Shown here: positions 14,467 to 46,135 of the stretch, piece by piece
Numbering within the stretch: the first letter of the stretch is position 1
Layout of the letters: each line of letters begins with the position of its first letter
Source of the DNA: Pontiella desulfatans
GTDB lineage: Bacteria; Verrucomicrobiota; Kiritimatiellia; Kiritimatiellales; Pontiellaceae
DNA length: 64,000 bases
Direction: 5' to 3'
Assembly: GCF_900890425.1 (NCBI RefSeq)
Contig: NZ_CAAHFG010000001.1
Location: 682,001-746,000, forward strand
The notes under the pieces: generated by a model
Told to the model about the DNA's origin: nothing
The model's input: the letters and a program-made list of their open reading frames with translations, nothing else
The model's database searches: none
Made by a program: the position numbers and the translations under genes

Positions 14467-14503
14467 TCAGTCGGGCCAGGCTGCTTTGTCAGGTGGGAGT
14501 ACA

Positions 14504-16114
14504 ATGAAAAACCTAATGTTTGTATTTTTTATTTTAGCGGTTGCTTTGGCGCACGGTGCCCGCAAGCCCAACATGATCGTCATTATGTGCGACGATCTTG
14601 GTTATGCGGATGTCGGCTTTAACGGCTGCAAGGACATCCCGACACCGAACATTGACCGCATTGCTGAAAACGGCGTGCGGTGCACCAGCGGCTACACGTC
14701 GTATTCGGTCTGTGGGCCGAGCCGCGCGGGTTTTATGACGGGACGCTATGGGCAACGGTTTGGATTTGAGCGCAATCCGCAGTATAGAACCGATGATCCG
14801 AACATGGGGTTGCCGAAGGAGGAAAAAACTTTCGGCGAAGCGCTGGGGCCGGTGGGGTATGCGACCGGCGTGGTTGGCAAGTGGCATTTGGGTGCCCATC
14901 CGAGCAATCATCCGCTGAACCGCGGGTTTGACTATTTTTATGGCCATCTGGGCGGTGGCCACCGCTTTATGCCGGAAGAGCTGACCATTCAGGATGGCTA
15001 CACCGCAACGAATGAGGAGGAAAGCTATCGTACCTGGATTATGAAAAACCATGAGGCGATCCCTCCTGCAAAATACCTGACGGATGAATTTTCCGATGCG
15101 GCCGTGGAGTTTATTGATCGAAGCAAAGACCGGCCGTTTTTTCTCTTCCTTTCATACAATGCTCCGCATTTGCCTTTGCAGGCAACGGATGAATATCTTG
15201 CCCGTTTCCCGAAGCTGGAAGGGGATCGGAAAATCTATGCCGCGATGGTCAGTGCTATCGACGACGGGGTCGGTCAGGTTTTTGATAAACTGGAAGAGTA
15301 CAAGCTGCTGGAAAAAACAATTCTTGTATTCCTCTCGGACAATGGTGGGCCCGAACCAAAGAATGCATCGGATAATGGACCTCTGCGTGGCGGGAAGGGC
15401 GATTCCTGGGAAGGCGGCTTCCGCGTCCCCTTTGCCGTGCAGTGGAAGGGGACGCTGCCGGCTGGGACAGAATACCACCATCCGGTCAGTGCGTTGGATA
15501 TTATGGGTACCATCGTGGATCTCGCCGATGCTCCGGTTGATCCCAAACGTCCGCTGGACGGCATTAATCTGATTCCCTATTTGGCGGGTAAAAAAAAAGG
15601 GATTCCGCATGAGGCCATTTATCTGCGCAAGTTCGATGGGGGAAAATATACGGTTCGAAGTGGAGCCTATAAAATGCATCTCGGCCCATGGCAGGGGGCT
15701 AAGCCGGAGCTTTATAACCTAGATGAGGATGTCGGCGAACAGAACAATGTCGCCGGGGATCATCCTGAAAAGATCCAGCACCTGGAAAAACTTCGCAAGC
15801 GGTGGGACGCAGAGTTGATCGAACCGATTTTCCTGGGGTTGATTCATACCCCGGAGTGGCAGGATAAACTCAAAAAACAGAATACGAAAAAATCACAAAC
15901 CGATAACCCCCAATGGGATTGGTTTTCTGCTCTGGACAAAAACAAGGATGGTGGCGTAACAGAAGTAGAGTGGCTTAACTGGACGATGAGTGAGGCAAAG
16001 AGAAAGGGCCGCAGCTCCACCGAAGCGCGCCAGCGCAAATTTTTTGCAGGGCGGGATTTGGATGGCGATGAAATCATTACACGTGAAGAACTCGAAGCCG
16101 GGATAAAAAGGTAG
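14504..16114 (+). CDS. S1 family sulfatase (CGPSR) with C-terminal EF-hand pair
   Basis: An arylsulfatase-type enzyme of 536 residues from the ATG at 14504. That start is preceded by AGGTGGGA; an in-frame TTG at 14486 is a poorer choice. A Sec signal peptide covers about 1-18. The catalytic motif is C70-GPSR, with MCDDLGYADVG upstream for metal binding, then GVVGKWHLG and FLSDNGGP. After the sulfatase core the tail (about 465-536) holds two EF-hand-like calcium loops, DKNKDGGVTEVE and DLDGDEIITREE. This resembles the tails of the sulfatases at 21796, 32110 and 33836. The tail could stabilise the enzyme in seawater calcium or mediate association between enzymes; this is inference. Confidence 0.9.
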   Translation: MKNLMFVFFILAVALAHGARKPNMIVIMCDDLGYADVGFNGCKDIPTPNIDRIAENGVRCTSGYTSYSVCGPSRAGFMTGRYGQRFGFERNPQYRTDDPNMGLPKEEKTFGEALGPVGYATGVVGKWHLGAHPSNHPLNRGFDYFYGHLGGGHRFMPEELTIQDGYTATNEEESYRTWIMKNHEAIPPAKYLTDEFSDAAVEFIDRSKDRPFFLFLSYNAPHLPLQATDEYLARFPKLEGDRKIYAAMVSAIDDGVGQVFDKLEEYKLLEKTILVFLSDNGGPEPKNASDNGPLRGGKGDSWEGGFRVPFAVQWKGTLPAGTEYHHPVSALDIMGTIVDLADAPVDPKRPLDGINLIPYLAGKKKGIPHEAIYLRKFDGGKYTVRSGAYKMHLGPWQGAKPELYNLDEDVGEQNNVAGDHPEKIQHLEKLRKRWDAELIEPIFLGLIHTPEWQDKLKKQNTKKSQTDNPQWDWFSALDKNKDGGVTEVEWLNWTMSEAKRKGRSSTEARQRKFFAGRDLDGDEIITREELEAGIKR

Positions 16115-18978: not shown

Positions 18979-20154
18979 ATGAAACAATACTTAAAACTTA
19001 TCGTTCTGACGCTGTTTGCCGGCTCTTTCGCGGCGGAACACGCTTATGCATCGATTGCGTCCGGGGAAATTTGGCGCGATGATCGCGGCGTTCATATCAA
19101 TGCTCATGGAGGTGGAATTCTCCGCCACAAGAATACCTACTATTGGTTTGGTGAGCATAAAATCGAAGGGAAGGCGGGCAACCGTGCGCATGTCGGTGTG
19201 CATGTCTATTCATCGAAGAATCTGCAGGACTGGTCGGACTGCGGTATCGCGCTGAACGTTTCGAACGATCCTAAATCGGAAATTACGAAAGGTTGCATTC
19301 TCGAACGGCCGAAGGTGGTGTTCAACGAGAAGACCCGAAAATTTGTAATGTGGTTTCATCTGGAACATAAAGATGCCAAGCCGCAACCCTATTCGACGGC
19401 CCGCTCCGCCGTCGCCGTCGCGGACGAGGTGACGGGCCCCTACACGTTCCTTCACAGCCTGCGCGGCACTCCGGAAAACTGGCCGATCAATTTTCCGGAA
19501 GAGATGAGGAACCAGTTCGACGTGAAAGACGACTATTACCACGGCTCTGCATCCTGGGAGGAAAAAGCGGAGACCCATCAGCGCGGGCTTGCGGTGAATA
19601 CCTGTTTTCACGAAGGGCAGATGAGCCGCGACCAGACGGTTTTCGTGGATGACGATGGCACAGCTTATCACATCGCGGCTTCGGAACATAACGCGACGTT
19701 GCATATCCGCGAACTGAACGAGAGCTACACCGGTTATACCGGAAAATATATCCGCATTTTCCCGGGGCGCTATCATGAAGCTCCGGCGGTTTTCAAGCGG
19801 GAGGGCAAATATTATCTGATTTCCAGCGGGTGCACCGGTTGGGCTCCCAATGCGGCACGCTCGGCGGTTGCCGACGACATCATGGGGGAATGGACTGAAC
19901 TGGGGAATCCCTGCGTGGGCATTAATCCGGGCAACAACATGGGCCCCGAAAAAACCTTTGGTGCCCAGAGTACCTTTGTTTTGCCGGTCACCGGAAAAAA
20001 AGATGCCTATATCGCGATGTTCGATATCTGGAGCCCGGGAAACGCGATTGATGGACGCTATGTCTGGCTGCCCATTGAATTCGCCGATGAAGGTTTCTAC
20101 GTGCCTTGGAAGAGCGCGTGGTCGATTTCCTCGTTTGAAGATATGGAGAATTGA
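18979..20154 (+). CDS. GH43-like five-bladed beta-propeller glycosidase
   Basis: This 391-residue exported protein has a signal peptide (about 1-25). The sequence has the GH43 propeller pattern: the opening HINAHGGGILRHKNTYYWFGE, then LERPKVVFNEKTRKFVMW, DQTVFVDDDGTAYHI and HEAPAVFKREGKYYLISSG. The combination most resembles GH43 subfamilies related to exo-beta-1,3-galactanases (43_24 and 43_34 types). That subfamily call is from memory and needs a profile search. It would remove terminal sugars from a galactan or xylose/arabinose-decorated chain. It lies 19 bp after one sulfatase and 1 bp before another, so it is co-transcribed with them. Confidence 0.78.
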   Translation: MKQYLKLIVLTLFAGSFAAEHAYASIASGEIWRDDRGVHINAHGGGILRHKNTYYWFGEHKIEGKAGNRAHVGVHVYSSKNLQDWSDCGIALNVSNDPKSEITKGCILERPKVVFNEKTRKFVMWFHLEHKDAKPQPYSTARSAVAVADEVTGPYTFLHSLRGTPENWPINFPEEMRNQFDVKDDYYHGSASWEEKAETHQRGLAVNTCFHEGQMSRDQTVFVDDDGTAYHIAASEHNATLHIRELNESYTGYTGKYIRIFPGRYHEAPAVFKREGKYYLISSGCTGWAPNAARSAVADDIMGEWTELGNPCVGINPGNNMGPEKTFGAQSTFVLPVTGKKDAYIAMFDIWSPGNAIDGRYVWLPIEFADEGFYVPWKSAWSISSFEDMEN

Positions 20155-24102: not shown

Positions 24103-25437
24103 TTACACAATCAGGGCGCACGATAGCGACCGTTCATAATGAACGGGCAGGGGTGTTTTGATGCTGACAACCAGGCAACTACGCGGCGGCGCGGTAATAG
24201 TGCGAAATGATTCCGCCGAGCCTCTTTTCCCGTTTAATTTCACCTTCAGTCGTGGGTGTGAAATCAACGTTAAGAACCGTATTGCTGATCTCTTTTCCTT
24301 GGTGAGGCCGTGTGAAATTGTAATGCGCCAACCACTCTCGGTTGATGTAGTCAAGGTGTTCAAGACTCAGGCAAACAAAGTGATCGAGGCACTGCGCTTT
24401 AATGGTAGAAATATAGCTCTCCGCGTATCCATTCGCTTGTGGGGTGCGTGGTGGAGTTCGGATTATTGTCGTTCCCGAACCTTTCCAGAAGGCATCGAAG
24501 CTCGCCGCGAATTTCGTATCGCGGTCACGGATGAGGTGACTTGCTCCGACTCCAATATCATCCAGCCACATGGAGGCGTTCCGCGCTTGTTGAAGCACCC
24601 ATTTTTCATCGGGATGAAACGTGGCCGGACTCATGAAGACGCGGCGGCTGCCGAGATGGATAAACACCAGCACATACGCGTCAATTTTCCCCATGAGCGT
24701 ATAGACCGGCTTCGTAAAAAAGTCGATCGCGACGAGCGTTTCAATATGCGAGCTGATAAACTTCGACCATGTACTGTCCGGGTTCTTCAGCGCTTTATCC
24801 GGAACCGGATTGAGGCCGTTGCGTTTCATAATGTCGCGGATAGTCGTCAGTCCAATTTTGATTCCCAACTTTTTCAGTTCCCCAAAGATTCGCTTATATC
24901 CCCATCCAAGGTTTTCGGAGGCGAGTCTGATAATCAATTGGATGGTTCCCTCATCCGTTTCCGGGCGACCGCCCTTGCGCTTCGGCTTTTTACCCGCCTT
25001 CTTCCGCAACCAATCACGATAGGTGCGGGGCTTTACCACCAGCATGACATCGGAAATGTCATGATCGATCAAAGCCCCCAGCCGCATAAGTTCCGTACGC
25101 TCCCTTTCCTCCGTAATGATCCGCGGGTCGTCAATTCGGTCGCGCAGCATTTCGATCTGGTACTTCAGTATCTGAAGACGCGCATCGTAGCGCGGCATGA
25201 AAAACCGCGAGATGAGAATGAATACCACCTGCAAAAACCAAGAATCCCCGTTGCTCTTCTCCAAAATCAATCCCTCTCAAATTCGTTGCTACCCATGAGC
25301 TTGCAGGAAGCGATACCTTTCCGCACCCCTAAGAAATCAACTAAACGTGAAAATTTACCGAAGAAGAGTGAGTCGAGCCACCGAAAAGCTGGATTTGTCG
25401 TCGGGTTTATGGGAATCTCTGGACCGTTAATTTGTTA
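24103..25437 (-). mobile_element. Insertion element carrying a DDE integrase/transposase
   Basis: The element is about 1.3 kb around one transposase gene on the minus strand. I place the ends at weak imperfect inverted repeats. The left end reads TTACACAATCAGGGCGCA inward (24103-24120). The right end reads TAACAAATTAACGGTCCA inward on the minus strand (25420-25437). They agree at 11 of 18 positions. I could not see a target-site duplication, so the borders are tentative. The left end also contains a perfect palindrome, CCGTTCAT-A-ATGAACGG (24130-24146). The right border lies 14 bp before the DUF4160 start. Confidence 0.45.
24179..25270 (-). CDS. Integrase core domain (rve) transposase
   Basis: A 363-residue protein on the opposite strand from every other protein gene here. 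Residues about 10-60 form a hydrophobic then helical N-terminus that is usual for this group of integrase-core proteins. About 95-160 is a helix-turn-helix-type region (GWGYKRIFGELKKLGIKIG). The catalytic core (about 170-320) has the DDE triad: D183 in VAIDFFTK, D249 (or D251) in IRDRDTKF and E284 in GYAESYISTIK. The end NFTRPHQG is typical of the family. It would cut and join the ends of its own element. The frame is intact, so the element may still be active. Confidence 0.85.
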   Translation of the reverse strand: MILEKSNGDSWFLQVVFILISRFFMPRYDARLQILKYQIEMLRDRIDDPRIITEERERTELMRLGALIDHDISDVMLVVKPRTYRDWLRKKAGKKPKRKGGRPETDEGTIQLIIRLASENLGWGYKRIFGELKKLGIKIGLTTIRDIMKRNGLNPVPDKALKNPDSTWSKFISSHIETLVAIDFFTKPVYTLMGKIDAYVLVFIHLGSRRVFMSPATFHPDEKWVLQQARNASMWLDDIGVGASHLIRDRDTKFAASFDAFWKGSGTTIIRTPPRTPQANGYAESYISTIKAQCLDHFVCLSLEHLDYINREWLAHYNFTRPHQGKEISNTVLNVDFTPTTEGEIKREKRLGGIISHYYRAAA

Positions 25438-26453: not shown

Positions 26454-27488
26454 ATGAATGAATTAATGGTGCCGATTTTTATTGTGATCCTGGCCAGTGT
26501 CTTTCAGGGCACGTTCGGGCTGGGGATGAAATATATTAAGCCGATGGCCTGGGAGGCCTGGTGGATAGTTCATGCCACGGTGGCGATGGTGATCTTCCCT
26601 CTGATATGGGCCTCGCTGGTGGTGCCGGATCTGGGTGGCGTATTGGCGCAGGCTCCGATGAATGAGGTGGTCGGCGGAGCAGTTATGGGATTTGTTTGGG
26701 GGATCGGCGGGATTATGTTCGGGGTATCGGTGGGATACATCGGCATGTCGCTGACCTATGGTATTGTGATGGGACTGTGCTCGATTGCCGGTGCATTGAT
26801 CCCTTTTTTCCTGCGTTTCGATTCCGTCAACAAAGCAAGCATTCCCTTTATTATTATCGGTTTGGTTCTGTTAGCCGTTGCGGTTTATATCGTAACTGTT
26901 GCCGGTTTGAAGCGGGACAAGCTTCTGGCTGAAGAAGGCAAGGACATTCAGGGGATCCAGAAAGGAGCCGCCTTTAAAAAGGGACTGTTGATTGCGTCGG
27001 TCTGCGGAATTCTCTCCGCATTGTTGGCAGTGGGGTTTGATAATACCATCGAAATCGGAAAACTGGCTCGTGAGGCGGGTGCGTTGGAACGTAATACCGC
27101 ACTGGCCCGATGGGTGGTGGTGCTGGCCGGCGCCTATCTGATGAATGTGGCCTATGCACTGTTCCTCCTCTTTAAGAATAAATCATTCGGTTCATTCAAG
27201 ACTCCCGGGATGATTAAGGCGCTAAAGTGGTCGATCATTGCCGGTCTGCTTTGGTTTGCGGCGCTTGGAACCTACGGCCAGGGCGTTGCACTAATGGGTG
27301 AAATCGGCACCATGATCTGTTGGCCCGTAATGCTGGGGCTCTCGCTGATTGTAAGTAACGTTGCCGGAATGATCACCGGCGAATGGAAAGGCGTTGCCGG
27401 GCCGTTCAAAATCATGCTGCTCGGGGTGACGGTGATTATTCTGGCTACCGTCGTGATGGCCTATGCCTCTACGTTGAAGACGGTATAA
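26454..27488 (+). CDS. rhaT: RhaT-like sugar/proton symporter
   Basis: A 344-residue integral membrane protein with about ten hydrophobic segments. It resembles the L-rhamnose/H+ symporter RhaT, part of the drug/metabolite transporter superfamily: ASVFQGTFGLGMKYIKPMAWEAWW at the start (read as two parts), GGIMFGVSVGYIGMSLTYGIVMGLCS in the middle and WKGV near the end. It would import a monosaccharide into the cytoplasm. It is the first gene of a tight string and is 1 bp from the next gene. The family name implies rhamnose. The downstream kinase and aldolase do not fit a 6-deoxy sugar, so the cargo may be a related sugar such as an anhydrohexose. Confidence 0.88.
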   Translation: MNELMVPIFIVILASVFQGTFGLGMKYIKPMAWEAWWIVHATVAMVIFPLIWASLVVPDLGGVLAQAPMNEVVGGAVMGFVWGIGGIMFGVSVGYIGMSLTYGIVMGLCSIAGALIPFFLRFDSVNKASIPFIIIGLVLLAVAVYIVTVAGLKRDKLLAEEGKDIQGIQKGAAFKKGLLIASVCGILSALLAVGFDNTIEIGKLAREAGALERNTALARWVVVLAGAYLMNVAYALFLLFKNKSFGSFKTPGMIKALKWSIIAGLLWFAALGTYGQGVALMGEIGTMICWPVMLGLSLIVSNVAGMITGEWKGVAGPFKIMLLGVTVIILATVVMAYASTLKTV

Positions 27489-27489
27489 T

Positions 27490-28668
27490 ATGATTTCATC
27501 GATTAAAACCTATCGTCTGCAGCATAAACTTGAAGAATCTTTTGGTTTTTCACAGTGGCACTACGATACGCGCAATAACCTGATCGTTGAAATTATTGAT
27601 GATTCCGGCACGGTGGGATACGGGGAGTGCTACGGCCCGGCCACGGTGACGCAGAATGCGGTCGATACCTTTTATGCTCCGCTTCTATTGGGCAGGGATC
27701 CGCTGAAAAATGAAGCGGCTTGGCAGCACTGCTGGCGTGCTTCGCTCGATTTCGCGATGAAAGGCCCAATGATGGGGGCAATTTCAGGGCTGGATATGGC
27801 TCTACTTGACCTTAAAGGAAAATTGTTGGGTATATCCGTCTCTGAGCTGATGGGAGGGCGGCTGCGCGATGAAGTAGCGTGCTATGCCACGGGTATGTAT
27901 TTTCGCAAGCAACCGGAAGAAGAATTACTGCAGACGATTCTCGAAGAAGCAACGGACTATGTTGGGCAGGGATTCGGTGCGCTTAAAATTAAGATCGGGA
28001 AAAATATGCCTTTTGATAAAAGGCTGATTGTTGCGATGCGCAATACCTTTCCCGATGTCCGATTGATGGCCGATTCGAATCATGCTTATGATCTTTCGGA
28101 AGCGGTAGAGATCGGCCGCCTGCTCAGCGAGCATGATTACAAATGGTTTGAGGAGCCGCTCTCCCCGACACATCCTGACCTTTTCCGGCAGTTGGCCGAT
28201 AAAGTTGATGTTCCGATTGCTGCAGGAGAGTGCGAGCAAACCCGGTATGGTTTCCAGGCGCTGCTTTCCAAAGGTGGCGTGCAGATTGCGCAGCCCGATC
28301 TGGCTTATTGCGGTGGACCAACCGAAGCGCTTAAAATCCGTGCTGTTGCATCATCCATGGGTATCAACACCATCGCCCACTGCTGGGGCACCCAGCTCAA
28401 TCTTGCCTGTGCTTTGCACTACCTCGCCACGACCTATATTGAGCCCGGAAGAGCCACGCCCACCGAGCCGCTTTTGGAAAGGGACCTGACTCCCAACCCC
28501 ATGCGCGACGCTATGTATTCCATGGGAATTGCCATTGAAAACGGTGTGGCGAAGGTTCCTGTCGGGCCGGGATTAGGGGTCGAGCCGGATCGTATGGAAA
28601 TGGAAAAATATTGTGTTCAGAAAACGGAGAAAACCCATGTCGGAAAAAAAATACCCGATGCTGATTAA
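27490..28668 (+). CDS. Enolase-superfamily sugar-acid dehydratase or cycloisomerase
   Basis: A 392-residue cytoplasmic protein of the mandelate racemase/muconate-lactonising group. Visible active-site residues are the K166-x-K168 pair (LKIKIG), the metal ligands D195 (ADSNH), E221 (WFEEP) and E247 (AGECE), and the base H297 (IAHCWGTQ). Known relatives dehydrate galactonate, fuconate or rhamnonate, or open 3,6-anhydrogalactonate (cycloisomerase of agar and carrageenan catabolism). All give a 2-keto-3-deoxy acid. Placement between a sugar symporter and an aldehyde dehydrogenase, upstream of KDG kinase and KDPG aldolase, favours a hexonate substrate. The exact reaction is not decided by the sequence. 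Confidence 0.88.
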   Translation: MISSIKTYRLQHKLEESFGFSQWHYDTRNNLIVEIIDDSGTVGYGECYGPATVTQNAVDTFYAPLLLGRDPLKNEAAWQHCWRASLDFAMKGPMMGAISGLDMALLDLKGKLLGISVSELMGGRLRDEVACYATGMYFRKQPEEELLQTILEEATDYVGQGFGALKIKIGKNMPFDKRLIVAMRNTFPDVRLMADSNHAYDLSEAVEIGRLLSEHDYKWFEEPLSPTHPDLFRQLADKVDVPIAAGECEQTRYGFQALLSKGGVQIAQPDLAYCGGPTEALKIRAVASSMGINTIAHCWGTQLNLACALHYLATTYIEPGRATPTEPLLERDLTPNPMRDAMYSMGIAIENGVAKVPVGPGLGVEPDRMEMEKYCVQKTEKTHVGKKIPDAD

Positions 28669-30034
28669 CGGCGAGAAGATCAGCACGAAACAGTCGTTTA
28701 ACGTCGTCAATCCATCTACGGGTGAAGTGCTCGGACAGGTGCCGGAAATTGATGCGGACAGCATTCAGTTGACGCTTAAATCAGCCGATGCGGGCTTCAA
28801 AGCCTGGTCGGCTAAAACGCCTGCAGAGCGAAAAACTGTGATTCTCCGTTATGCGGAAGTGCTGGAGCAAAACAGCAAACGGATCATTGCGCTACTACGT
28901 GCGGAAACGGGCAAGCCGCAGGATAATGCTGAATATGATTTCGGTATGCTGGGAAATTGTCTCCGCTTTTTTGTGGAGGAAATGGAGCGCCTTGATCAGC
29001 CGGTGCTGCATGATCCCGATGGCCGTTTTATGCACTATATGCTGCGTCAGCCTCTGGGTGTCTGTGTCGGTATGCTTGCCTGGAACTTTCCGTTACTGAA
29101 CGTGGCCTATAAGATCGGACCGGCCTTGGCCGCAGGATGCTCGGTTATTCTCAAGCCGTCAACCGAGACGCCGCTTGCCTCGTTGGAAGTGGCGTATTTG
29201 GCGAAAGAGGCGGGATTGCCGGACGGGGTGATCAATATGGTCACCGGCCGAGACCATGAGATGATGAAAAACATGCTGAAAAGTGATATCCCCTCCATGG
29301 TGACCATGATCGGTTCCACGCGCGGCGGGTTGGAAGTCATGAATGCGGCCTGTACCAGCATCAAACATTTCTCAGTAGAACTGGGCGGCAATGCGCCGGT
29401 TGTGGTTTATCCGGATGCCGATGTGGCCGATGCCGCAACTAAAGTAGTTGATCTGAAATTTGCCAACTGCGGCCAGGTTTGTGTTTCTCCCAACCGTTGT
29501 TTTGTCCATGAATCAGTCTACGATGAGTTTGTCGAAGCCGCTAAAGCCCGTGCCATGGAAGTGGAAATGGGGCCGCTGATTTCTGAAAAGGCGCGGGCTT
29601 ATATTCTGGGTTTGGTCGAATCAGCCGTCGCTGATGGCGCAGATGTGGTTTGTGGCGGACAGGCGAAAGATGGCGAAGGATTCTTCATGGAACCGACCAT
29701 CCTTGCCAACGTGGTAAGAAAAATGAACGTGGCCTATGAAGAAATCTTTGGTCCCGTACTGCCTATTATTAAGTATTCTGATTCTGATGATGAAATTGCG
29801 TTGGCAAACGATACGCAATACGGGTTGGCGGCCTATGTTTTCACTACTAACCTGAAAAACGGGTTGCGTGCCGCTCGCGATATTCAGGCCGGCAGCGTGT
29901 GTGTCAATGAGCCTCATTATTCCGTACAATTGCCGCATGGAGGTCTGAAGCAGAGCGGGGTGGGAAAAGATTGCTCGCGTTACAGTCTGGAAGAATACCT
30001 GACTCTCAAGCGTGTATCCGTATTGGTCGATTAA
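28637..30034 (+). CDS. NAD(P)-dependent aldehyde dehydrogenase
   Basis: A 465-residue member of the aldehyde dehydrogenase superfamily. I chose the ATG at 28637 (MSEKKYPMLING) because it follows ACGGAGA; an in-frame GTG at 28613 is possible. The start overlaps the preceding gene by 32 bases. The catalytic C282 lies in NCGQVCVSPNR and the base E248 in VELGGNAP. The cofactor region LGVCVGMLAWNFPL is present. The closest functional classes are lactaldehyde, succinate-semialdehyde or anhydrogalactose dehydrogenases. In this operon it could oxidise the imported sugar (for example 3,6-anhydrogalactose) to its aldonate, or lactaldehyde if a 6-deoxy sugar is used. Confidence 0.9.
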   Translation: MSEKKYPMLINGEKISTKQSFNVVNPSTGEVLGQVPEIDADSIQLTLKSADAGFKAWSAKTPAERKTVILRYAEVLEQNSKRIIALLRAETGKPQDNAEYDFGMLGNCLRFFVEEMERLDQPVLHDPDGRFMHYMLRQPLGVCVGMLAWNFPLLNVAYKIGPALAAGCSVILKPSTETPLASLEVAYLAKEAGLPDGVINMVTGRDHEMMKNMLKSDIPSMVTMIGSTRGGLEVMNAACTSIKHFSVELGGNAPVVVYPDADVADAATKVVDLKFANCGQVCVSPNRCFVHESVYDEFVEAAKARAMEVEMGPLISEKARAYILGLVESAVADGADVVCGGQAKDGEGFFMEPTILANVVRKMNVAYEEIFGPVLPIIKYSDSDDEIALANDTQYGLAAYVFTTNLKNGLRAARDIQAGSVCVNEPHYSVQLPHGGLKQSGVGKDCSRYSLEEYLTLKRVSVLVD

Positions 30035-30047
30035 CCGGGAAATAGAA

Positions 30048-30704
30048 ATGTTTTCAAAGGAATTAATGGGGCGTCTGAAACGCTCGGGTGTTGTGGCTGG
30101 TTTTGCAGTCGATCAGGTTGAGCATGCCGTTCCGACCGCCGAGGCCCTGTTGGCCGCGGGTATTGACGCCATTGAGTTGACGCTTCGCACAGATGTTGCG
30201 CTCGATGCGGTAAAGGCCATTGCTGACGGTTTGCCTGATATCCTGCTGGGGGTCGGTACGATTCTCACACCGGAACAGCTCGTTCAGGTGAAGGAGGCCG
30301 GAGCCCATTTCGGGGTGTCGCCGGGCATGAATCCGCGTGTCGTCCAGGCTGCTGTTGAACATGGGCTGCCCTTTGCGCCGGGGATTTGTACACCTTCCGA
30401 TCTTGAAGCGGCTATCGAGCTGGGGTGCCGGTTTGTGAAATTCTTTCCGGCCGAGGCGAGTGGAGGCGTGAACTATCTAAAAAGCATGGCGGCCCCGTAT
30501 CGGCATCTTGGGATTCAGTACTTCCCGTTGGGCGGCCTGAATGCGGGTAACATGAAGGACTACCTCGAGTTGGATAATGTTCCCACCATCGGAGGCTCGT
30601 GGATCGTGGAGAAGGGCCTTGTTGAATCCGGTGACTGGAACGGATTGAGCGCTCGTGCCGCCGAAGTGCGGGAAATGATTAATAAAGGAGCATGCAATGT
30701 ATAA
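30048..30704 (+). CDS. eda: KDPG/KDPGal-type aldolase (Eda family)
   Basis: From the ATG at 30048, 13 bp after the preceding stop, the protein is 218 residues, the usual size for the family. It has the class I KDPG aldolase features: E43 in IELTLRT, GVGTILTPEQ, the Schiff-base lysine K131 in FVKFFPAEASGG, and PLGGLNAGN. It cleaves 2-keto-3-deoxy-6-phosphogluconate or the galactonate epimer to pyruvate and glyceraldehyde-3-phosphate. Its substrate would be made by the kinase at 30999. An upstream in-frame start at 30012 overlaps the dehydrogenase and is less likely. Confidence 0.92.
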   Translation: MFSKELMGRLKRSGVVAGFAVDQVEHAVPTAEALLAAGIDAIELTLRTDVALDAVKAIADGLPDILLGVGTILTPEQLVQVKEAGAHFGVSPGMNPRVVQAAVEHGLPFAPGICTPSDLEAAIELGCRFVKFFPAEASGGVNYLKSMAAPYRHLGIQYFPLGGLNAGNMKDYLELDNVPTIGGSWIVEKGLVESGDWNGLSARAAEVREMINKGACNV

Positions 30705-31002
30705 ACATGTGGTTTTATGGAAGTTGAAAGATGAAGCGAATGGATTGAACAAGGCCGAGCTGGCTATTGAAGTCAAACGCCGGTTGGACGAACTTCCGGG
30801 GATCATCCCCGAGATCAGCGATTATGAAACGGCCATCAATATCGGCGACTATGGTGCTTCCTTTTTTGATGTCAGTCTGATCGCCGCCTATCCGGATGAG
30901 GAAGCGTTCAAAAAATACTGCGTCTATCCCGCACACGATGCCGTGGTTGCCTATATTCAATCGGTTACTATAGCTGAAGAAATTGTGGATTATACCGTAT
31001 GA
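30697..31002 (+). CDS. Dabb (stress-responsive alpha-beta barrel) domain protein
   Basis: This 101-residue protein has the Dabb pattern: MYKHVVLWKLKDEA at the start, a helix with LPGI, then DVSLIAAYPDEEAFKKYC and HDAVVAYI. It is a ferredoxin-like fold that dimerises into a small barrel. It overlaps both neighbours (8 bases before, 4 after), so it is coupled to the aldolase and the kinase. The family function is poorly known. Sugar mutarotases such as RhaM have a similar size and fold class, so a helper role in sugar conversion is conceivable, but I see no mutarotase motif. Confidence 0.85.
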   Translation: MYKHVVLWKLKDEANGLNKAELAIEVKRRLDELPGIIPEISDYETAINIGDYGASFFDVSLIAAYPDEEAFKKYCVYPAHDAVVAYIQSVTIAEEIVDYTV

Positions 31003-32087
31003 AATCTGTTGTAACCTTTGGAGAAATCATGGCGCGTATTGCGGCGCCCGAGAATTTGCGCCTGCGGCAGACGCGTACGTTTGATGTGACCTATGCAGGG
31101 GCGGAAGCCAGTGTGGCGGCATCGATCTGCAATTTTGGCGGTAAGGCGCGTTACGTCACAGCACTGCCAAAGCATGCGATGGCCGAAGCCACGATGGATT
31201 CGGTACGCGCCGTGGGTATCGACACCCAGTTCATTCTGCGGACAGACGAGGGACGACTTGGGCTCTATTTTCTGGAAACAGGCGCTAATCAGCGACCGAG
31301 CAATGTTATCTATGACCGCGCGGATTCCGCAGTGGCCATCACTCCGGTTGAGGCCTATGACTGGGATTCCATTTTTGATGGAGCGCAGTGGCTACATTTA
31401 AGCGGGATCACGCCGGCACTTTCAAAGACGGCCGCGGATGCAACACTGGTGGCCGCGCAAAAGGCGAAAGCCGCCGGTTGCCGGGTTTCAATTGATCTGA
31501 ATTTTCGCGGTAAGCTCTGGAAGTGGGACGCATCAAAAACCGCCCGCGAGCTGGCCCGGGAAACTATGTGCGGTGTGCTGCCCCTCATCGATGTGGTCAT
31601 TGCCAATGAAGAAGACTGCCACGATGTGCTTGGGATTTGTGCGGGTGAAACCGACGTGCATTCCGGTGAACTCGATACCGCGCGGTATCCGGATGTCGCC
31701 CGCCAGGTGGTTAAACAGTTTCCGAATGTTTCGCTGGTGGCCATCACGCTACGTGAAAGCCTGTCGGCCACCCATAATAACTGGGGTGCTATGCTGTATG
31801 ATGCTGCGTCGGACACGCCGTGTTTTGCGCCGCTTGATGCGGATGGCGGCTACCAGTCTTATCCCATTAAAAACATTGTCGACCGGGTCGGTGGCGGCGA
31901 TTCCTTTGCCGGCGGTCTGATCTTTGCTTTGGTTACCCCCGAGCTGGCCGAGCCGCATAAGGCGGTGAAGTATGCGGTGGCCGCCTCGTGTCTGAAGCAT
32001 TCAATCAAGGGCGACTTTAACTATTCAACCCGGGCGGAAGTCGAGGCGCTGATGGGCGGTTCTGCATCCGGTCGGGTTGTGCGCTGA
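30999..32087 (+). CDS. kdgK: 2-keto-3-deoxygluconate/galactonate kinase, PfkB family
   Basis: A 362-residue PfkB/ribokinase-fold kinase. The early GEIMARI segment, the substrate-side YAGAEASVAA, ISIDLNFRGKLW-like and VIANEED segments, and the catalytic motif DRVGGGDSFAGGL with D301 are in the family order and match KDG kinases. It would phosphorylate the 2-keto-3-deoxy acid at C6 with ATP, feeding the aldolase at 30048. C6 phosphorylation requires a 6-hydroxyl, so the acid cannot derive from fucose or rhamnose. The start overlaps the Dabb stop (ATGA). Confidence 0.9.
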   Translation: MKSVVTFGEIMARIAAPENLRLRQTRTFDVTYAGAEASVAASICNFGGKARYVTALPKHAMAEATMDSVRAVGIDTQFILRTDEGRLGLYFLETGANQRPSNVIYDRADSAVAITPVEAYDWDSIFDGAQWLHLSGITPALSKTAADATLVAAQKAKAAGCRVSIDLNFRGKLWKWDASKTARELARETMCGVLPLIDVVIANEEDCHDVLGICAGETDVHSGELDTARYPDVARQVVKQFPNVSLVAITLRESLSATHNNWGAMLYDAASDTPCFAPLDADGGYQSYPIKNIVDRVGGGDSFAGGLIFALVTPELAEPHKAVKYAVAASCLKHSIKGDFNYSTRAEVEALMGGSASGRVVR

Positions 32088-32109
32088 ATGATCAGTTTTG
32101 AGGAACGGT

Positions 32110-33831
32110 ATGAAAATATGGATTCAAGCAGGATATATTGCCCTGTTCGTGCTGTGCGGAAGTTTATCCCATGCAGTCAAACCGAATGTGATTCTTATTA
32201 TCTGCGATGATCTGAATGACTATGTCGGGGTTTTCGGTGGTCATCCGCAGGCTAAAACGCCGAATATGGACCGATTGGCGGCGAGCGGGGTTTCGTTTCA
32301 GCAGGCGCACTGCACCATTCCGATCTGTAATCCTTCGCGTGCGAGTTTCCTGACCGGGCTGTATCCGCATACCTCGCAGTGTTATGGCTTTGATAACTGG
32401 GATGGTTATGAGGTGCTGAAAAATTCACGTACCCTGATGGATCATTTCCGTAAGAATGGCTACGTCTCTCTCGGTACGGGTAAAATGATGCATAACCGGG
32501 GCGAGCAGGAATGGACGCAATTCGGTCATCCGTCCGACTATGGCCCATTTGCGTATAACGAAGAAAAGACGGTGGCGCATCCCTGGAATAAAGCGCCGTT
32601 CCGTGATGATTTCGGGGCAATCGATGGTTCTTTCGGTCCGCTCTTTAAATTGCAGGGTGAAATTTCGCCGGAGAACGGAAAGCCATTTACCTGGCGGACC
32701 GGCAACTGGAAAAAGATGCGCGAACTGCGGTATGAATCGGACGCTGACCGGGATCCGACCGGCGACGAATTAAATGCCCGGTGGGCTGTTGAGCACCTGA
32801 ATGCATACGCAAAGAAACCGAAAGATAAACCCTTCTTCATGGGCGTAGGTTTTCTTCGGCCTCATACGCCTTTGATTGTGCCGCAGGAATATTTTGATCG
32901 ATTTCCGCTCGAATCCATCGAACTGCCGAGCATTCTGGAGAACGATGCTGCTGATACTTTCAAGCATACGATTACTTCCAGTGAAGATGATCGGAGTGGT
33001 GATCGTGGAACCAAAATTTATGACAGTCTGATTGCGTCGTTTGATGGCGACCGTGAACTGGCGTTGAAGAAATTTGTTCAGGCTTATCTGGCCAGCGTGG
33101 CTTCGGTGGATGATCTGGTTGGCGATATTTTAGATGTGGTTGATTCCTCTCCGCTGAAAGACAACACGATCGTAATTCTTACGAGCGATCATGGTTGGGG
33201 GAACGGAGAAAAAGATTATCTGTATAAGAATTCGCTCTGGCAGGAGAGTACCCGCGTGCCGCTGGTGATCCGGGCGCCGGGCGTTTCCAAAGCCGGGCAA
33301 TCGGCTGTTGTGCCGGTCTCGCTGGTGGATCTATATCCCTCCCTGATCGATCTTTGCGGATTGGAAGGGGATACCCGCAAGAATGAAAAGGGGCGACGGC
33401 TGGATGGATACAGCCTGAAGCCGCTACTGGAAAATCCAATGACTGGAACGTGGGATGGACCGGATGCGGCGCTGACCGCGTTGTATAAATGGGACAGTTA
33501 TTATGATCCGGCAAAGCAGAGCTATTCCCTGCGTTTCAAGGACTGGCGGTATATCCGGTATCAAAATGGGAAAGAAGAGCTGTATCATACCGCGCAGGAT
33601 CCAAAGGAATGGACCAACCTGGCCCTGAATCCGGAATATGCCGAACAGCTTGCCGGTTTCCGTGCAAAACTGATGACGCGAATTCCCGAGTCGAAGCCGC
33701 GTCCGGCACCGACTGCGGGCGATAATGAAAAATGGAAAAGCAGCTATTTCAAGAAACATCCCGAGGCTGATACGAATGGGGATGGCTCCCTGAGCTGGGC
33801 CGAGCTGAAAGCGCATAAGGATGGGGAATAG
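32110..33831 (+). CDS. S1 family sulfatase (CNPSR) with EF-hand tail
   Basis: Start placed at the ATG at 32110 after GAGGAACGG; the upstream in-frame start at 32098 lacks a comparable site. The 573-residue exported protein has the signal MKIWIQAGYIALFVLCGSLSH, ICDDLNDYVGVFGGHPQ, the formylglycine motif C73-NPSR, GTGKMMH, GVGFLRPHTPL and TSDHGWGNGEKDY. The C-terminus carries one calcium loop, DTNGDGSLSWAE. It follows the KDG kinase by 22 bp, so desulfation and sugar catabolism appear to be on one transcript. It is related to the next gene and to the sulfatases at 21796 and 53757. Confidence 0.9.
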   Translation: MKIWIQAGYIALFVLCGSLSHAVKPNVILIICDDLNDYVGVFGGHPQAKTPNMDRLAASGVSFQQAHCTIPICNPSRASFLTGLYPHTSQCYGFDNWDGYEVLKNSRTLMDHFRKNGYVSLGTGKMMHNRGEQEWTQFGHPSDYGPFAYNEEKTVAHPWNKAPFRDDFGAIDGSFGPLFKLQGEISPENGKPFTWRTGNWKKMRELRYESDADRDPTGDELNARWAVEHLNAYAKKPKDKPFFMGVGFLRPHTPLIVPQEYFDRFPLESIELPSILENDAADTFKHTITSSEDDRSGDRGTKIYDSLIASFDGDRELALKKFVQAYLASVASVDDLVGDILDVVDSSPLKDNTIVILTSDHGWGNGEKDYLYKNSLWQESTRVPLVIRAPGVSKAGQSAVVPVSLVDLYPSLIDLCGLEGDTRKNEKGRRLDGYSLKPLLENPMTGTWDGPDAALTALYKWDSYYDPAKQSYSLRFKDWRYIRYQNGKEELYHTAQDPKEWTNLALNPEYAEQLAGFRAKLMTRIPESKPRPAPTAGDNEKWKSSYFKKHPEADTNGDGSLSWAELKAHKDGE

Positions 33832-33835
33832 ATTG

Positions 33836-35548
33836 ATGAAGATCAATAGTGTCATAGTGCTGTTGGCTGCTTTGTCCATCCAGACCGTTTCTGCAGAAAA
33901 GCAGAATGTCATGATGATTGTCCTTGATGATATGAATGATTGGTTAGGCTTAATGGGAGGCCATCCGCAGGCACAGACTCCGAATATGGATCGGCTGGCC
34001 GGGGAAGGGGTACTGTTCCTTAACGCGCACGCCAACGTCGGCGTCTGTTCACCGTCGCGCGCCAGTTTTATGTCGGGCATCCATCCGCTCACAAGCGGAT
34101 GCTGGGGATTTAATAATCCGCTGAAAAACAACGTGGTCAACAACTCAAAAAACCTGCCGGAATATGCGCGCGAAAACGGATTTAAAACATACCAGACCGG
34201 AAAGATCTTTCACCATGTCCCTAAGGATGCCTGGACGCAGAAGGGGATAAAAAAATATCACGGTCCGATGGCATGGGATGGCAAAAAGGTGGCGTTTCAT
34301 CCGTCGTGTCCGGCAACGATGGCTGAGCTCGGCGCATTGGATTCCACCTATGCCTCTTTGGCGGATGTTCCTTCAACTTCAGGGTATACCGGTTGGTGGG
34401 ATTCCAGCAGCAATGTGCCGTTTCGCTATGTTTCCGAGGATGACCGCGACCGGATGACGGATGAAAAAAGTGTGCAGTGGTTCCGCGAAAAGATGGTCGC
34501 GCTGGAACGCAACAACAATGCCGAACCGTTTATGATGGCGTTCGGGATCATGCGCCCGCACACGCCGCTGGTGGTGCCGCAGAAATATTTCGAACTATTC
34601 CCGCTCGATACGGTCGAGTTTCCCGAAATAAAGGAAGACGATATCGCTGATCTGCCGTGGGGAGAGGATTCCCGCGGAAGACAGACGATTGAAGCACTGC
34701 GCGCCGGGGCGGCCGATCCGGTCGCGGAATTCCGCAAATATGTACAAGCCTACCTGGCCTCCGTCGCCTTTGCCGATGATATCGTCGGGCAGGCGCTCGG
34801 GATTCTCGACAACAGTCGGTTTAAAGAAAATACGACCGTCATACTGTTCAGCGATCACGGCTACAATATCGGTGAAAAGGAATATCTCTGGAAATACAAC
34901 CTCTGGGAGGAGAGCACCCGCGTACCGCTGATTATCCGCGATACACGCTATGCGGTGAATGCCGGAAAAACCGTCGATCATCCCGTGAGCTTGATTGATG
35001 TTTTTCCGACCATTACTGACTTGTGCGGAATGACCGGTGAAACGGTGAAAGGGCCCGGTGGCGCACCGGTTGACGGACATTCTCTTCGGCCGTTTTTAGA
35101 AAATCCGGCTGCCACGGAGTGGGATGGGCCGGACGCCGCGTTGTCCGTGATCGCGAGTTGGAAATCGAAGCGGCCCATCGATCAGCACCTTTCAATACGC
35201 ACCAAGGATCATCGTTACACCCGGTATTATGGTGGTGGCGAAGAGCTGTATGATCATCGCAACGATCCGTTTGAATGGAATAATCTGGCCTCCAGTCCTG
35301 AGCATGCTGAAATTAAGGCAAAGCTTGGTAAACAGATGAATGCAATGGTTCCCGAAACCACGCCGAAAACCGAACCGAAAAAGAAGGCTGCGGTAAAGTC
35401 CGCCAAAGTAAAGACGAGTGATGAGCAGTGGAAAGATAAATATTTCGGGTGGCATCCCGATGCCGATACCGACAAGGATGGCGAGTTGACCTGGGCGGAA
35501 TATCGGAAGCACAAAGATGCGCTCGACGCAAAGAAGGCCGGGAAATAA
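33836..35548 (+). CDS. S1 family sulfatase (CSPSR) with EF-hand tail
   Basis: Start at the ATG at 33836, four bases after the previous stop (TAG ATTG ATG). The 570-residue exported enzyme has a signal peptide (about 1-20), VLDDMNDWLGLMGGHPQ, C71-SPSR, QTGKIFHH, GIMRPHTPL and FSDHGYNIGEKEY. A Lys-rich linker leads to a calcium loop, DTDKDGELTWAE. Adjacent location and similar architecture suggest it arose with the sulfatase at 32110 by duplication, then diverged to act on a different sulfate position. That is inference. Its stop overlaps the next start by one base. Confidence 0.9.
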   Translation: MKINSVIVLLAALSIQTVSAEKQNVMMIVLDDMNDWLGLMGGHPQAQTPNMDRLAGEGVLFLNAHANVGVCSPSRASFMSGIHPLTSGCWGFNNPLKNNVVNNSKNLPEYARENGFKTYQTGKIFHHVPKDAWTQKGIKKYHGPMAWDGKKVAFHPSCPATMAELGALDSTYASLADVPSTSGYTGWWDSSSNVPFRYVSEDDRDRMTDEKSVQWFREKMVALERNNNAEPFMMAFGIMRPHTPLVVPQKYFELFPLDTVEFPEIKEDDIADLPWGEDSRGRQTIEALRAGAADPVAEFRKYVQAYLASVAFADDIVGQALGILDNSRFKENTTVILFSDHGYNIGEKEYLWKYNLWEESTRVPLIIRDTRYAVNAGKTVDHPVSLIDVFPTITDLCGMTGETVKGPGGAPVDGHSLRPFLENPAATEWDGPDAALSVIASWKSKRPIDQHLSIRTKDHRYTRYYGGGEELYDHRNDPFEWNNLASSPEHAEIKAKLGKQMNAMVPETTPKTEPKKKAAVKSAKVKTSDEQWKDKYFGWHPDADTDKDGELTWAEYRKHKDALDAKKAGK

Positions 35549-38394: not shown

Positions 38395-38415
38395 TTTTTA
38401 AGAAAGGAACGAGAT

Positions 38416-41301
38416 ATGAAAGTGATAATTACAATGGTGGTTCTACTGGCTTTCTCGATGGCGGGGCATGCCGGCTTGCGTGATGTTCAGTCTCTGGACG
38501 GGGAGTGGAATATTGTTTTTGATGAAGCCAATGAAGGACGTCAAGCTGCGTGGCATGTGCAGGAGACCTTCAACGAGCTGGAATCCCGCCCGATTCAGGT
38601 GCCGAGCTGCTGGGAAGAAATTGAGCAGGATTATGAAGGGGTCGCCACCTATGGTAAAACCTTCAAGGTTTCCAGGGACTGGAAAGGAAAGACCGTTCGC
38701 CTGCAGTTCGATGCCGTGAACTATATCGCTGAAGTCTGGCTGAATGATCATTGTGTCGGTCGCCATGAAGGCGGCTATGGTCCGTTCGAGTTTCAGGTGG
38801 ATGACCTGCTGAAATTCGGGCAAGAGAACTTTCTCTCGCTGCGTGTGGTGGGACCCATTGTGACGCGGGAAGATCTGGTGATCGACGGTCTGGGGAAGAA
38901 CGATGCCCCGCATTGGCGAGGTGCCATTGTCGGCGGCATCTGGCAGTCAGTGCGCCTGGTGGCTTCCGGCTCGGTAACGGTCGACGATCTCTTTGTGATT
39001 CCTCAACTTAAGGATGATACGGCCCGGGTGCAGCTGCAACTGGAGAACACGGATACGAAACGCGGGGATGCCCGGGTTTCGGTAAGCGTTTCCGATGAAA
39101 ACGGCGTGGTTGCCGAAAAAAGCAAGAAGCTCAAACTGCTGCCTGGAAAAAATAAAGCGGACTGGACGCTGCAGATTCCGGATGCAAAATACTGGTCGCC
39201 CGATGCGCCGAACCTTTACACCGTTTCGGTAACGGTAGAGGGCTCTGATGCGGAGACGGTCCGGTTTGGTATGCGTGAGCTGACGGTCAAGGACAAGGAG
39301 TTTGTACTGAACGGCAAGCCGATCTATATCAAGGCCGCTTTCTTTGAAGGGCTCTATCCGACCAGGCTGGCGTTGCCGGACAATCGCGAAATGGCGATTC
39401 GGGAAATCCAGCTGGCGAAGGATGCCGGCTTTAACATGATCCGTCCGTGGCGCAAGCCGCCCCCGCCGGAATGGCTCGATCTATGCGATGAAATGGGGGT
39501 GCTGGTCATCGGCGGACTGCCGATCGAATGCATGCGCCAGTGGCCGACGGTGACGCCGGAAATGCCGCGCCGCATTGAAAACGAAGTGCGCACCGCGATC
39601 CTGCGCGACCGCAACCGCGCCTGCATTGTGCAGTGGGAAATCTTTAATGAAATCTGGCGCAAGGAACTCAAGCGCATGAAGCATCCGATGTCGATGCTGG
39701 CGCGCGAGCTGGATCCTTCGCGTATGATCCTGGACGAGTCGGGCGGATTCGCGGACGGTGCAAACATTTATCTTCCCTACGAAGTGGAGCCGGTAAAGTT
39801 TAACGACATTCACATGTATCTGGGTGCTCCGCTCAACGACAAAACCTATGCCCAGATTCTGGCACTGGGTATGACGGACGCTGAAATGCAGGCGCTGGGC
39901 TATGAACCGGATGAGTTGAAAAATAAGCATGCCCACGCGGGTCTGATGTCGCTGGTTTCGGAAATTGGTTACGGCAGCATTCCGGATGTGGTGGACAATA
40001 ACCGTCGGTTCCGCGAGAAGGGGAATCCACTGGTTCCGCCGTACCGCTATCATCAGATGCTGGAAGAAACCACCGCTGCCGTTTTGAAAGAGAGCGGACT
40101 CGATGCGATTTATCCTGATGTGCAGCAGTTCTGCATTGAGCAGCAGAAGATCCATTCCGATGTTAATAAACGGATGGTGGAAGCGATTCGTTCCAATCCA
40201 ATGGTGCGGGGCTACTGTGTACACGCGCTGACCGGTGGGGACTGGGTGCTGGGCGCCGGTCTGCTGGATCTTTGGCGCAATCCGAAGGCGTCCTACTATG
40301 GAACCAAAGAGGCCAATGCGCCCCGTTATCTTGCGGTTCGTGTGATGCCTCGTAATATCTATGCAGGGCAGCCTGCCAAGGTGACCGTGACCGGAATCAA
40401 CGATCTGGATGCCGTGGACGGTAAGTTGGAAGTCAGGTTGCTGGATGCCGATGGCAAGGTGGTTAAAAAATGGAAACACAAGGTGGAGCTGGCCGGCGGC
40501 ATATCCGGCCTGCTGGAAGAAGCGCTGGATGCTTCGAAGCTTTCGGGGGCTTATAAAGCGGAAGTCAAACTGACCGGAAAGAGCGGCGTGATGGCGCAGA
40601 ACACCTTCGGGTTTAATGTGTTCGGAGCGGCGGATCTTCAAGTTCCCTCCGCAAAAATTGCGGTGCTGGATTCGACGGATGCACTGACCCCCTTCCTGAA
40701 AGGTCGGGGCATTGCATTTGTTGAATTTGATGAAACAACGCCGAAGTCGATGCCGGTTTATGTCGTGGACAATGTGGCGAATACCAAGCCGTTGAAGGCA
40801 ACCTTCCGGGCGTTGGAAAATTTTGTAAAGCAGGGCGGTACGGCCGTGTATCTGCAGGCGATGCTCCGTCCGGGAAATATCTACTGGAGCGGAAAGCTGC
40901 CGTCAGACGAAGTGCTGCCGATCAAAAAGGGCAAGAAGCATGCGCTCGGTTTATGGGTCGGCGTTTCGCATATCGTAACGGACCATCCCGTTTTTGCCGG
41001 CCTTCCCGTGAATACGATGATGGGGCAGGAATATGAAAATGTCTGGTCGCCTTATGTACTCAGTGATATGGGCAATGACCTGATTGTCGGTTCCGTCAGT
41101 TATGGATTCTATGCCGGCGATAAAACCCATATGCAGAGTTATATCGGTCCGGAGCCGGCCTTCTACGGCATGGACATGGGGATCGTAAAGCATGGTGACG
41201 GGCGCTATGTGCTCAGCACCCTGCGCCTGATTGAAAACCTCGGCTCCGATCCGGTGGCCGACAAGATTCTCTTCAACCTGATTAACTGGACGGCCAGATA
41301 A
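38416..41301 (+). CDS. GH2 family glycosidase, tandem copy 2
   Basis: The 961-residue exported paralogue of the preceding gene, 21 bp downstream after AAGGAACGAG. The two share long identical stretches (for example VPSCWEEIEQDYEG, NYIAEVWLN, KPPPPEWLDLCDEMGV) and the same domain order, including the amidotransferase-like C-terminal domain (VTDHPVFAGLP). The acid/base is E412 (WEIFNEIW) and the nucleophile candidate E516 (LVSEIGYGS). Both copies keep intact catalytic residues, so they are probably specialised for two linkages or sulfation states. Signal peptide about 1-20. Confidence 0.88.
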   Translation: MKVIITMVVLLAFSMAGHAGLRDVQSLDGEWNIVFDEANEGRQAAWHVQETFNELESRPIQVPSCWEEIEQDYEGVATYGKTFKVSRDWKGKTVRLQFDAVNYIAEVWLNDHCVGRHEGGYGPFEFQVDDLLKFGQENFLSLRVVGPIVTREDLVIDGLGKNDAPHWRGAIVGGIWQSVRLVASGSVTVDDLFVIPQLKDDTARVQLQLENTDTKRGDARVSVSVSDENGVVAEKSKKLKLLPGKNKADWTLQIPDAKYWSPDAPNLYTVSVTVEGSDAETVRFGMRELTVKDKEFVLNGKPIYIKAAFFEGLYPTRLALPDNREMAIREIQLAKDAGFNMIRPWRKPPPPEWLDLCDEMGVLVIGGLPIECMRQWPTVTPEMPRRIENEVRTAILRDRNRACIVQWEIFNEIWRKELKRMKHPMSMLARELDPSRMILDESGGFADGANIYLPYEVEPVKFNDIHMYLGAPLNDKTYAQILALGMTDAEMQALGYEPDELKNKHAHAGLMSLVSEIGYGSIPDVVDNNRRFREKGNPLVPPYRYHQMLEETTAAVLKESGLDAIYPDVQQFCIEQQKIHSDVNKRMVEAIRSNPMVRGYCVHALTGGDWVLGAGLLDLWRNPKASYYGTKEANAPRYLAVRVMPRNIYAGQPAKVTVTGINDLDAVDGKLEVRLLDADGKVVKKWKHKVELAGGISGLLEEALDASKLSGAYKAEVKLTGKSGVMAQNTFGFNVFGAADLQVPSAKIAVLDSTDALTPFLKGRGIAFVEFDETTPKSMPVYVVDNVANTKPLKATFRALENFVKQGGTAVYLQAMLRPGNIYWSGKLPSDEVLPIKKGKKHALGLWVGVSHIVTDHPVFAGLPVNTMMGQEYENVWSPYVLSDMGNDLIVGSVSYGFYAGDKTHMQSYIGPEPAFYGMDMGIVKHGDGRYVLSTLRLIENLGSDPVADKILFNLINWTAR

Positions 41302-43575: not shown

Positions 43576-43583
43576 CTCAAGGT

Positions 43584-43633
43584 GGAGGGACGATGTTCTC
43601 ATCGTCCGCAGACAGCGGGGACGCTGTCCCTCC
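43584..43633. repeat. REP-like compound palindrome
   Basis: A 50-bp structure between two operon segments. Outer arms GGAGGGAC ... GTCCCTCC enclose two smaller hairpins, GACGATG-TTCT-CATCGTC and CAGCG-GGGA-CGCTG. It sits just after the GH78 stop in a 171-bp gap and looks like a dispersed extragenic palindrome. It may also end or stabilise the upstream transcript. Confidence 0.6.
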
Positions 43634-43746
43634 AGCAGGCAGTGTTTAATCGCCGGAGCAGCAGGATGAAGAAGCAGGATGAAATTATATAGGTCCCAGA
43701 ACATCGGAAGAATGGATTTTCGATGATCTAATTTTATGGAGGCAGG

Positions 43747-46086: not shown

Positions 46087-46135
46087 TCCATGGCTGAGTA
46101 GGTGAAGGTGCGGGCTTTTTTAAGGAGATAGGATT

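Follow-up and report, generated by a model that had tools for sequence, protein, structure and literature searches.

A putative sugar-catabolic operon of six genes, located at positions 26454-32087 of a 64,000-nucleotide stretch of DNA of the marine bacterium Pontiella desulfatans (hereafter the window; C1:682001-746000 of a genome of 8.66 Mb in 6 contigs), was analysed and is very probably a D-3,6-anhydrogalactose (D-AHG; dau) operon dedicated to the anhydro sugar of kappa-family carrageenans, which are seaweed polymers. The gene content of the operon, the kinship of its dehydrogenase (DauA) and cycloisomerase (DauB) to known D-AHG enzymes and the linkage of its RhaT-type symporter to dauB are evident from the sequence itself. 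The initial annotation had placed five genes in one operon; their order and coordinates were confirmed, with two starts shifted, and their families were borne out by Pfam matches; its gene count was incomplete, the sixth gene (Dabb, 30697-31002) having been overlooked. The genes, all on the same strand, are as follows (KDPG, 2-keto-3-deoxy-6-phosphogluconate; KHG, 2-keto-4-hydroxyglutarate).

26454..27488, plus strand: RhaT/DMT-family sugar:H+ symporter, the putative importer of 3,6-anhydro-D-galactose (PF06379, 1.7e-27; ribosome-binding site TAGGAGA upstream)
27490..28668, plus strand: DauB-like 3,6-anhydro-D-galactonate cycloisomerase, enolase superfamily (MR_MLE N-terminal 2.8e-14, C-terminal 1.8e-51)
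28637..30034, plus strand: DauA-like 3,6-anhydro-D-galactose dehydrogenase, aldehyde dehydrogenase family (Aldedh, 3.7e-142)
30048..30704, plus strand: KDPG/KHG (EDA)-type aldolase, a distant or non-orthologous DauD replacement (PF01081, 1.3e-60)
30697..31002, plus strand: Dabb-domain (PF07876) protein of 101 aa (Pfam, 4.4e-14; own AGGAG)
30999..32087, plus strand: PfkB-family 2-keto-3-deoxy-hexonate kinase, a non-orthologous replacement of the DGOK-type DauC (PfkB, 2e-29)

The spacing of these genes is tight, the symporter stop at 27488 being followed by the dauB start at 27490, the dauA start lying inside the adjoining dauB (stop at 28668) and the Dabb gene overlapping the end of the aldolase gene as well as the beginning of the kinase gene; since the genes overlap or abut, they are likely to form a single transcription unit. 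The same gene set was found again in many genomes and is therefore no chance assembly. For the dehydrogenase, ATG 28637 is the most likely start in place of GTG 28613, and for the aldolase it is ATG 30048 in place of GTG 30012. Copies of the Dabb protein with 70-85% identity occur in 6 other dau loci (Kiritimatiellota, Verrucomicrobia and one Algibacter, L075; the loci compared are numbered with an L). A transposase-like gene with an rve_3 integrase core lies just upstream of the operon, at 24179-25270 on the minus strand.

The best solved match of the dehydrogenase is the DauA of Pseudoalteromonas (6PNU/6POP; 377 bits, 40% identity, runner-up 328), which is among the structures of a study that characterised DauA and assayed it on D-AHG (PMC6923384). 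The cycloisomerase, which matched 188 sequences of the Protein Data Bank (PDB), finds its best solved match in 5OLC (333 bits, 43-44% identity), the assayed DauB of Zobellia (PMC5698469), and it retains the catalytic base and acid as well as the metal ligands (K168, H297, D195, E221 and E247), together with D87 and W299. In the same search, rhamnonate dehydratases named as such reached at most 94 bits, and no fuconate dehydratase was named among the best 60 of the 188 matches. A tree of 93 sequences, which included Escherichia coli RhmD and DgoD and the galactarolactone cycloisomerase (GCI) AtGCI but held no fuconate dehydratases, placed the window protein inside a 48-member clade (support 100/99) of proteobacterial proteins and proteins of the Planctomycetes-Verrucomicrobia-Chlamydiae (PVC) group, including that of Colwellia echini (L027), with all three reference enzymes outside it. 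L-rhamnonate dehydratase was accordingly rejected, the window protein being only 27% identical to RhmD and lying outside its group; the clustering with such dehydratases that the initial annotation had named as contrary to its proposal did not occur, as far as the rhamnonate part is concerned. Because of long branches, the tree does not fix how the DauB clades of the window type and of the Bacteroidetes are placed at depth with respect to AtGCI.

AtGCI (4GGB/4HPN) is the next solved match after 5OLC, at 285 bits and 40% identity and with the same catalytic residues, and one could accordingly presume a galactarolactone- or galacturonate-type pathway in which the enolase-superfamily enzyme is a galactarolactone cycloisomerase. 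We regard this as extremely improbable, because the lid motif FSQWxY, present in the window protein, in 5OLC and in most dau relatives, is absent from AtGCI, and because the first enzyme of the operon is an aldehyde dehydrogenase nearest to DauA and not a uronate dehydrogenase of the short-chain dehydrogenase/reductase type. Moreover, the products of GCI are not known to be processed by a 2-keto-3-deoxygluconate (KDG) kinase and a KDPG aldolase. A third enolase-superfamily gene of the genome (L090 8568-9743; C1:3493573-3494745) is 37% identical to the window DauB and groups with AtGCI, on long branches. When plasmids were searched for named dau relatives, nothing beyond GCI-like proteins at roughly 40% identity came up.

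The 3,6-anhydrogalactose pathway of dehydrogenase, cycloisomerase, kinase and aldolase, as proposed initially, is thus well supported and can be narrowed to the D enantiomer. Catabolism of L-3,6-anhydrogalactose (L-AHG) from agar or porphyran would employ the same reaction types, agarase and GH117 families are reported in the genome description (PMC7356697), and many DauB relatives come from genera with agar-degrading members. Even so, the L enantiomer appears very unlikely: the L-AHG cycloisomerase structure 5XD7 scores only 104 bits against the window protein, compared with 333 for DauB, in the P. atlantica-type L-AHG route the cycloisomerase must be followed by two further dehydrogenases (PMC5943477), neither of which the operon encodes, P. 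desulfatans does not grow on agar (PMC7356697), and the D-AHG genes of Colwellia echini, which are induced by carrageenan, are placed in a carrageenan and not an agar cluster (PMC6952198).

The carrageenan polysaccharide utilization locus (PUL) of C. echini (Ce349/Ce350, Ce358/Ce359; PMC6952198) likewise encodes a DauB and a DauA that are 60% and 58% identical to those of the window, but it differs in having a DGOK kinase and a DgoA-like aldolase, and the 21 kb inspected gave no match to RhaT; about 6 kb from dauB lies a transporter gene of the MFS type. The PUL ZGAL_3145-3159 of Zobellia galactanivorans (dauABCD; PMC5698469) resembles the window operon in its DMT/RhaT symporter-dauB-dauA arrangement with a kinase and an aldolase following, and has a GH127 in the system; the window operon has a Dabb gene, unlike Zobellia, and no GH127 near it. 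In a Zobellia-type locus (L119), whose DauB is identical to 5OLC at 375/378 positions and whose order of aldolase, DGOK kinase, DauA, DauB and symporter is that of ZGAL_3153-3157, the identities to the window proteins were 48% for RhaT, 43% for DauB and 37% for DauA; its DGOK kinase has no similarity to the window PfkB kinase, and its DgoA-like aldolase is 28% identical to that of the window. At the left end of a flavobacterial locus (L122), a separate cluster within a few kb of the dau operon encodes relatives of DauA (34%), DauB (29%) and RhaT (24%) and may represent a sister pathway that acts on another sugar.

The symporter had been put forward as a new transporter type, a claim that does not survive comparison, as RhaT-family symporters commonly adjoin dauB in Flavobacteriia and PVC bacteria. 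ZGAL_3157, adjoining dauB in Zobellia, is listed as a sugar/H+ symporter (DMT) (PMC5698469), and the neighbour of dauB in the Zobellia-type locus is the RhaT homologue mentioned above. RhaT proteins of 50-90% identity were found near dau genes in 23 of the 80 loci assembled around DauB relatives, and in a second sample of 388 phylum genomes, picked independently of dauB, all matches with at least 62% identity (7/7) lay directly beside dauB, while 7 of the 10 dauB matches had an adjoining RhaT. The dauB-linked proteins form a clade of their own (96/96) that excludes E. coli RhaT as well as two paralogues of the source genome. A literature search retrieved no AHG transporter of the rhamnose-symporter type, and the PDB search no solved homologue of the protein. 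Judging from these gene neighbourhoods, a RhaT-family symporter is the usual importer for the dau pathway and not a new type, with D-AHG as the predicted transported sugar.

The family name of the symporter, together with a GH78-like gene at 41302-43575 and many sulfatases, underlies the alternative raised in the initial annotation, namely an ulvan-like substrate from which L-rhamnose is imported by RhaT while the kinase and aldolase handle uronate-derived KDG. This can be all but dismissed, since the scanned window proteins gave no Pfam match to a uronyl-hydrolase (unsaturated type included) or ulvan-lyase family, the route would leave DauA and DauB without use, and the symporter is tied to dauB. 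Better candidates for deoxy-sugar uptake are encoded elsewhere: the two RhaT paralogues score 252 and 244 bits with PF06379, versus 97 for the operon protein, and both adjoin Fucose_iso_C isomerases, one of them also near a GH78. An E. coli-type L-rhamnose symporter was also rejected for the operon, its RhaT being 24% identical to that of E. coli, in a separate clade, dauB-adjacent in its seven close phylum homologues and below every RhaT equivalog model cut-off. E. coli RhaT and RhmD share only superfamilies with the window proteins (24% and 27% identity) and fall outside the dau clades.

The lower part of the D-AHG pathway departs from the characterised systems. The kinase has no similarity to the DGOK kinases of the Zobellia-type locus and C. 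echini; it scores 210 bits with the NCBIfam model for a bifunctional kinase of KDG and 2-keto-3-deoxygalactonate, which is below the model cut-off. No dauC orthologue of the DGOK type was found, the source genome giving no DGOK match anywhere. None of the dau loci examined combines a PfkB relative with a DGOK kinase, and 7 genomes of the PfkB type, including the source genome and Rhodopirellula rubra, were without any DGOK match, while C. echini and Paraglaciecola arctica have one. In the phylum genomes, kinase matches with at least 77% identity belong to dauB-linked loci in 6 of 7 cases, and the enzyme is consistent with recruitment from a local KDG kinase. The aldolase is nearer to EDA-type models than to the Zobellia-type DauD. 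On family membership, the PfkB kinase and, less certainly, the EDA-type aldolase stand in for the DGOK and DgoA-like enzymes that Zobellia and Colwellia use; with a kinase of suitable class present, the phosphorylation step can be filled and the operon would work as a dau pathway in which the kinase has been exchanged. Gene set and importer type are known, but 2 of the 4 enzymes, the kinase and probably the aldolase, belong to families other than those characterised in Zobellia.

In the route thus envisaged, exported hydrolases and sulfatases would trim carrageenan, and D-AHG would be set free by anhydrogalactosidases of the GH127 type, whose genes lie in other parts of the genome, and be imported with H+ by the RhaT-like symporter. 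DauA is predicted to oxidise D-AHG to 3,6-anhydro-D-galactonate, and DauB to open the anhydro ring, giving 2-keto-3-deoxy-D-galactonate; the PfkB kinase would phosphorylate this product at C6 and the EDA-type aldolase would cleave it to pyruvate and glyceraldehyde-3-phosphate. We infer all enzyme activities, and the galacto specificity of the kinase and aldolase, from sequence relationships.

A second complete copy of the operon is located on another contig (C2:262141-268134; L088 12142-18138), adjoined by a GH127 that is of a different type from the GH127 beside most dau loci. Between the copies, RhaT is the least conserved protein (62% identity, enzymes 67-85%). The presence of two full copies with a symporter this diverged, a conserved Dabb gene of no assigned role and the lack of a GH127 seen near the window copy could suggest that one copy serves D-AHG and the other a hexose that is related to it but distinct, with an anhydro or other modification. 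We consider this very unlikely, given that the DauB proteins of both copies are among the same close relatives in the tree, that both copies have the Dabb gene and that no independent sign of another sugar was encountered. There is, likewise, only a slim chance for its fuller form, in which the window operon would serve a modified or other anhydro-hexose for which no catabolism is known so far, Dabb would catalyse an additional step and the RhaT paralogue would be specific for that sugar, the second copy being the ordinary D-AHG operon.

Carrageenan as the source of D-AHG accords with the physiology of P. desulfatans, which grows on kappa-carrageenan and not on iota-carrageenan or agar (PMC7356697). 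Besides a lambda-carrageenase-domain protein (no solved homologue in the PDB search), several GH2 genes and many other sulfatases, the window contains the following genes, the first about 10 kb upstream of the operon.

14486..16114, plus strand: S1_19-type sulfatase, kappa/iota-carrageenan context (345 bits to 6PRM, an exo-4S-kappa-carrageenan sulfatase; 336 to 6B0J, an iota-carrageenan sulfatase)
32098..33831, plus strand: sulfatase directly downstream of the operon (PF00884; 63-80% identical neighbour in L019, L020, L028 and L054)
38416..41301, plus strand: GH2 enzyme, recurrent near dau genes (Pfam GH2 domains; in L020, L028, L054, L063, L064, L069, L071, L072 and L084)

The genome holds GH127 anhydrogalactosidase candidates beside the second operon copy and at C1:1722929, the latter sharing 62% identity with the GH127 beside the dau operon of Pontiella sulfatireligans F21. 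That operon (L017) is closely related (RhaT 63, DauB 75, DauA 79, aldolase 73 and PfkB kinase 88% identical) and differs in being immediately preceded by genes for an MFS transporter, GH127 and sulfatase and in yielding no Dabb match. In the window region 32098-48817, a sulfatase, two GH2 genes and the GH78-like gene partly recur beside dau genes (L020, L028, L054, L063, L069, L084), in loci of Verrucomicrobia and Flavobacteriaceae, suggesting that the region is part of a wider conserved cassette. The GH2 gene at 38416 was rejected as a firm companion gene, being about 5 kb from dauB in one genome (G301) but distant or on another contig elsewhere. A GH43-family protein (18979-20154) scores 373 bits with 6EUG and matches galactan 1,3-beta-galactosidases more weakly, and the solved relatives of a large GH16 protein (43747-46086) are laminarinases, not kappa-carrageenases.

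Several observations weigh against the assignment to D-AHG. Identities to the characterised enzymes are moderate (37-44%), and the score of AtGCI is not far behind that of 5OLC. The kinase family is common, being found in 90 of 376 phylum genomes with most matches away from dauB, so that the kinase alone is uninformative on D-AHG, and EDA-type aldolases often act better on the gluco than on the galacto epimer. The D-AHG pathway as known has no step for the Dabb protein. Within the window, no kappa-carrageenase was identified, its GH16 being laminarinase-like, and no GH127 match was seen.

Overall, the analysis ties a RhaT subclade to D-AHG across phyla, and such proteins should not be labelled rhamnose transporters. 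dauC is missing in some species with the carrageenan system, for which a non-phosphorylative route has been suggested (PMC5698469). The PfkB kinase is a possible simpler answer, at least for Planctomycetes and Kiritimatiellota, as an enzyme of this family encoded next to the aldolase, like those of Rhodopirellula rubra (L022) and the Kiritimatiellota, would provide the phosphorylation step in species described as lacking dauC. The operon would also place a complete D-AHG route in the anaerobic Kiritimatiellota.

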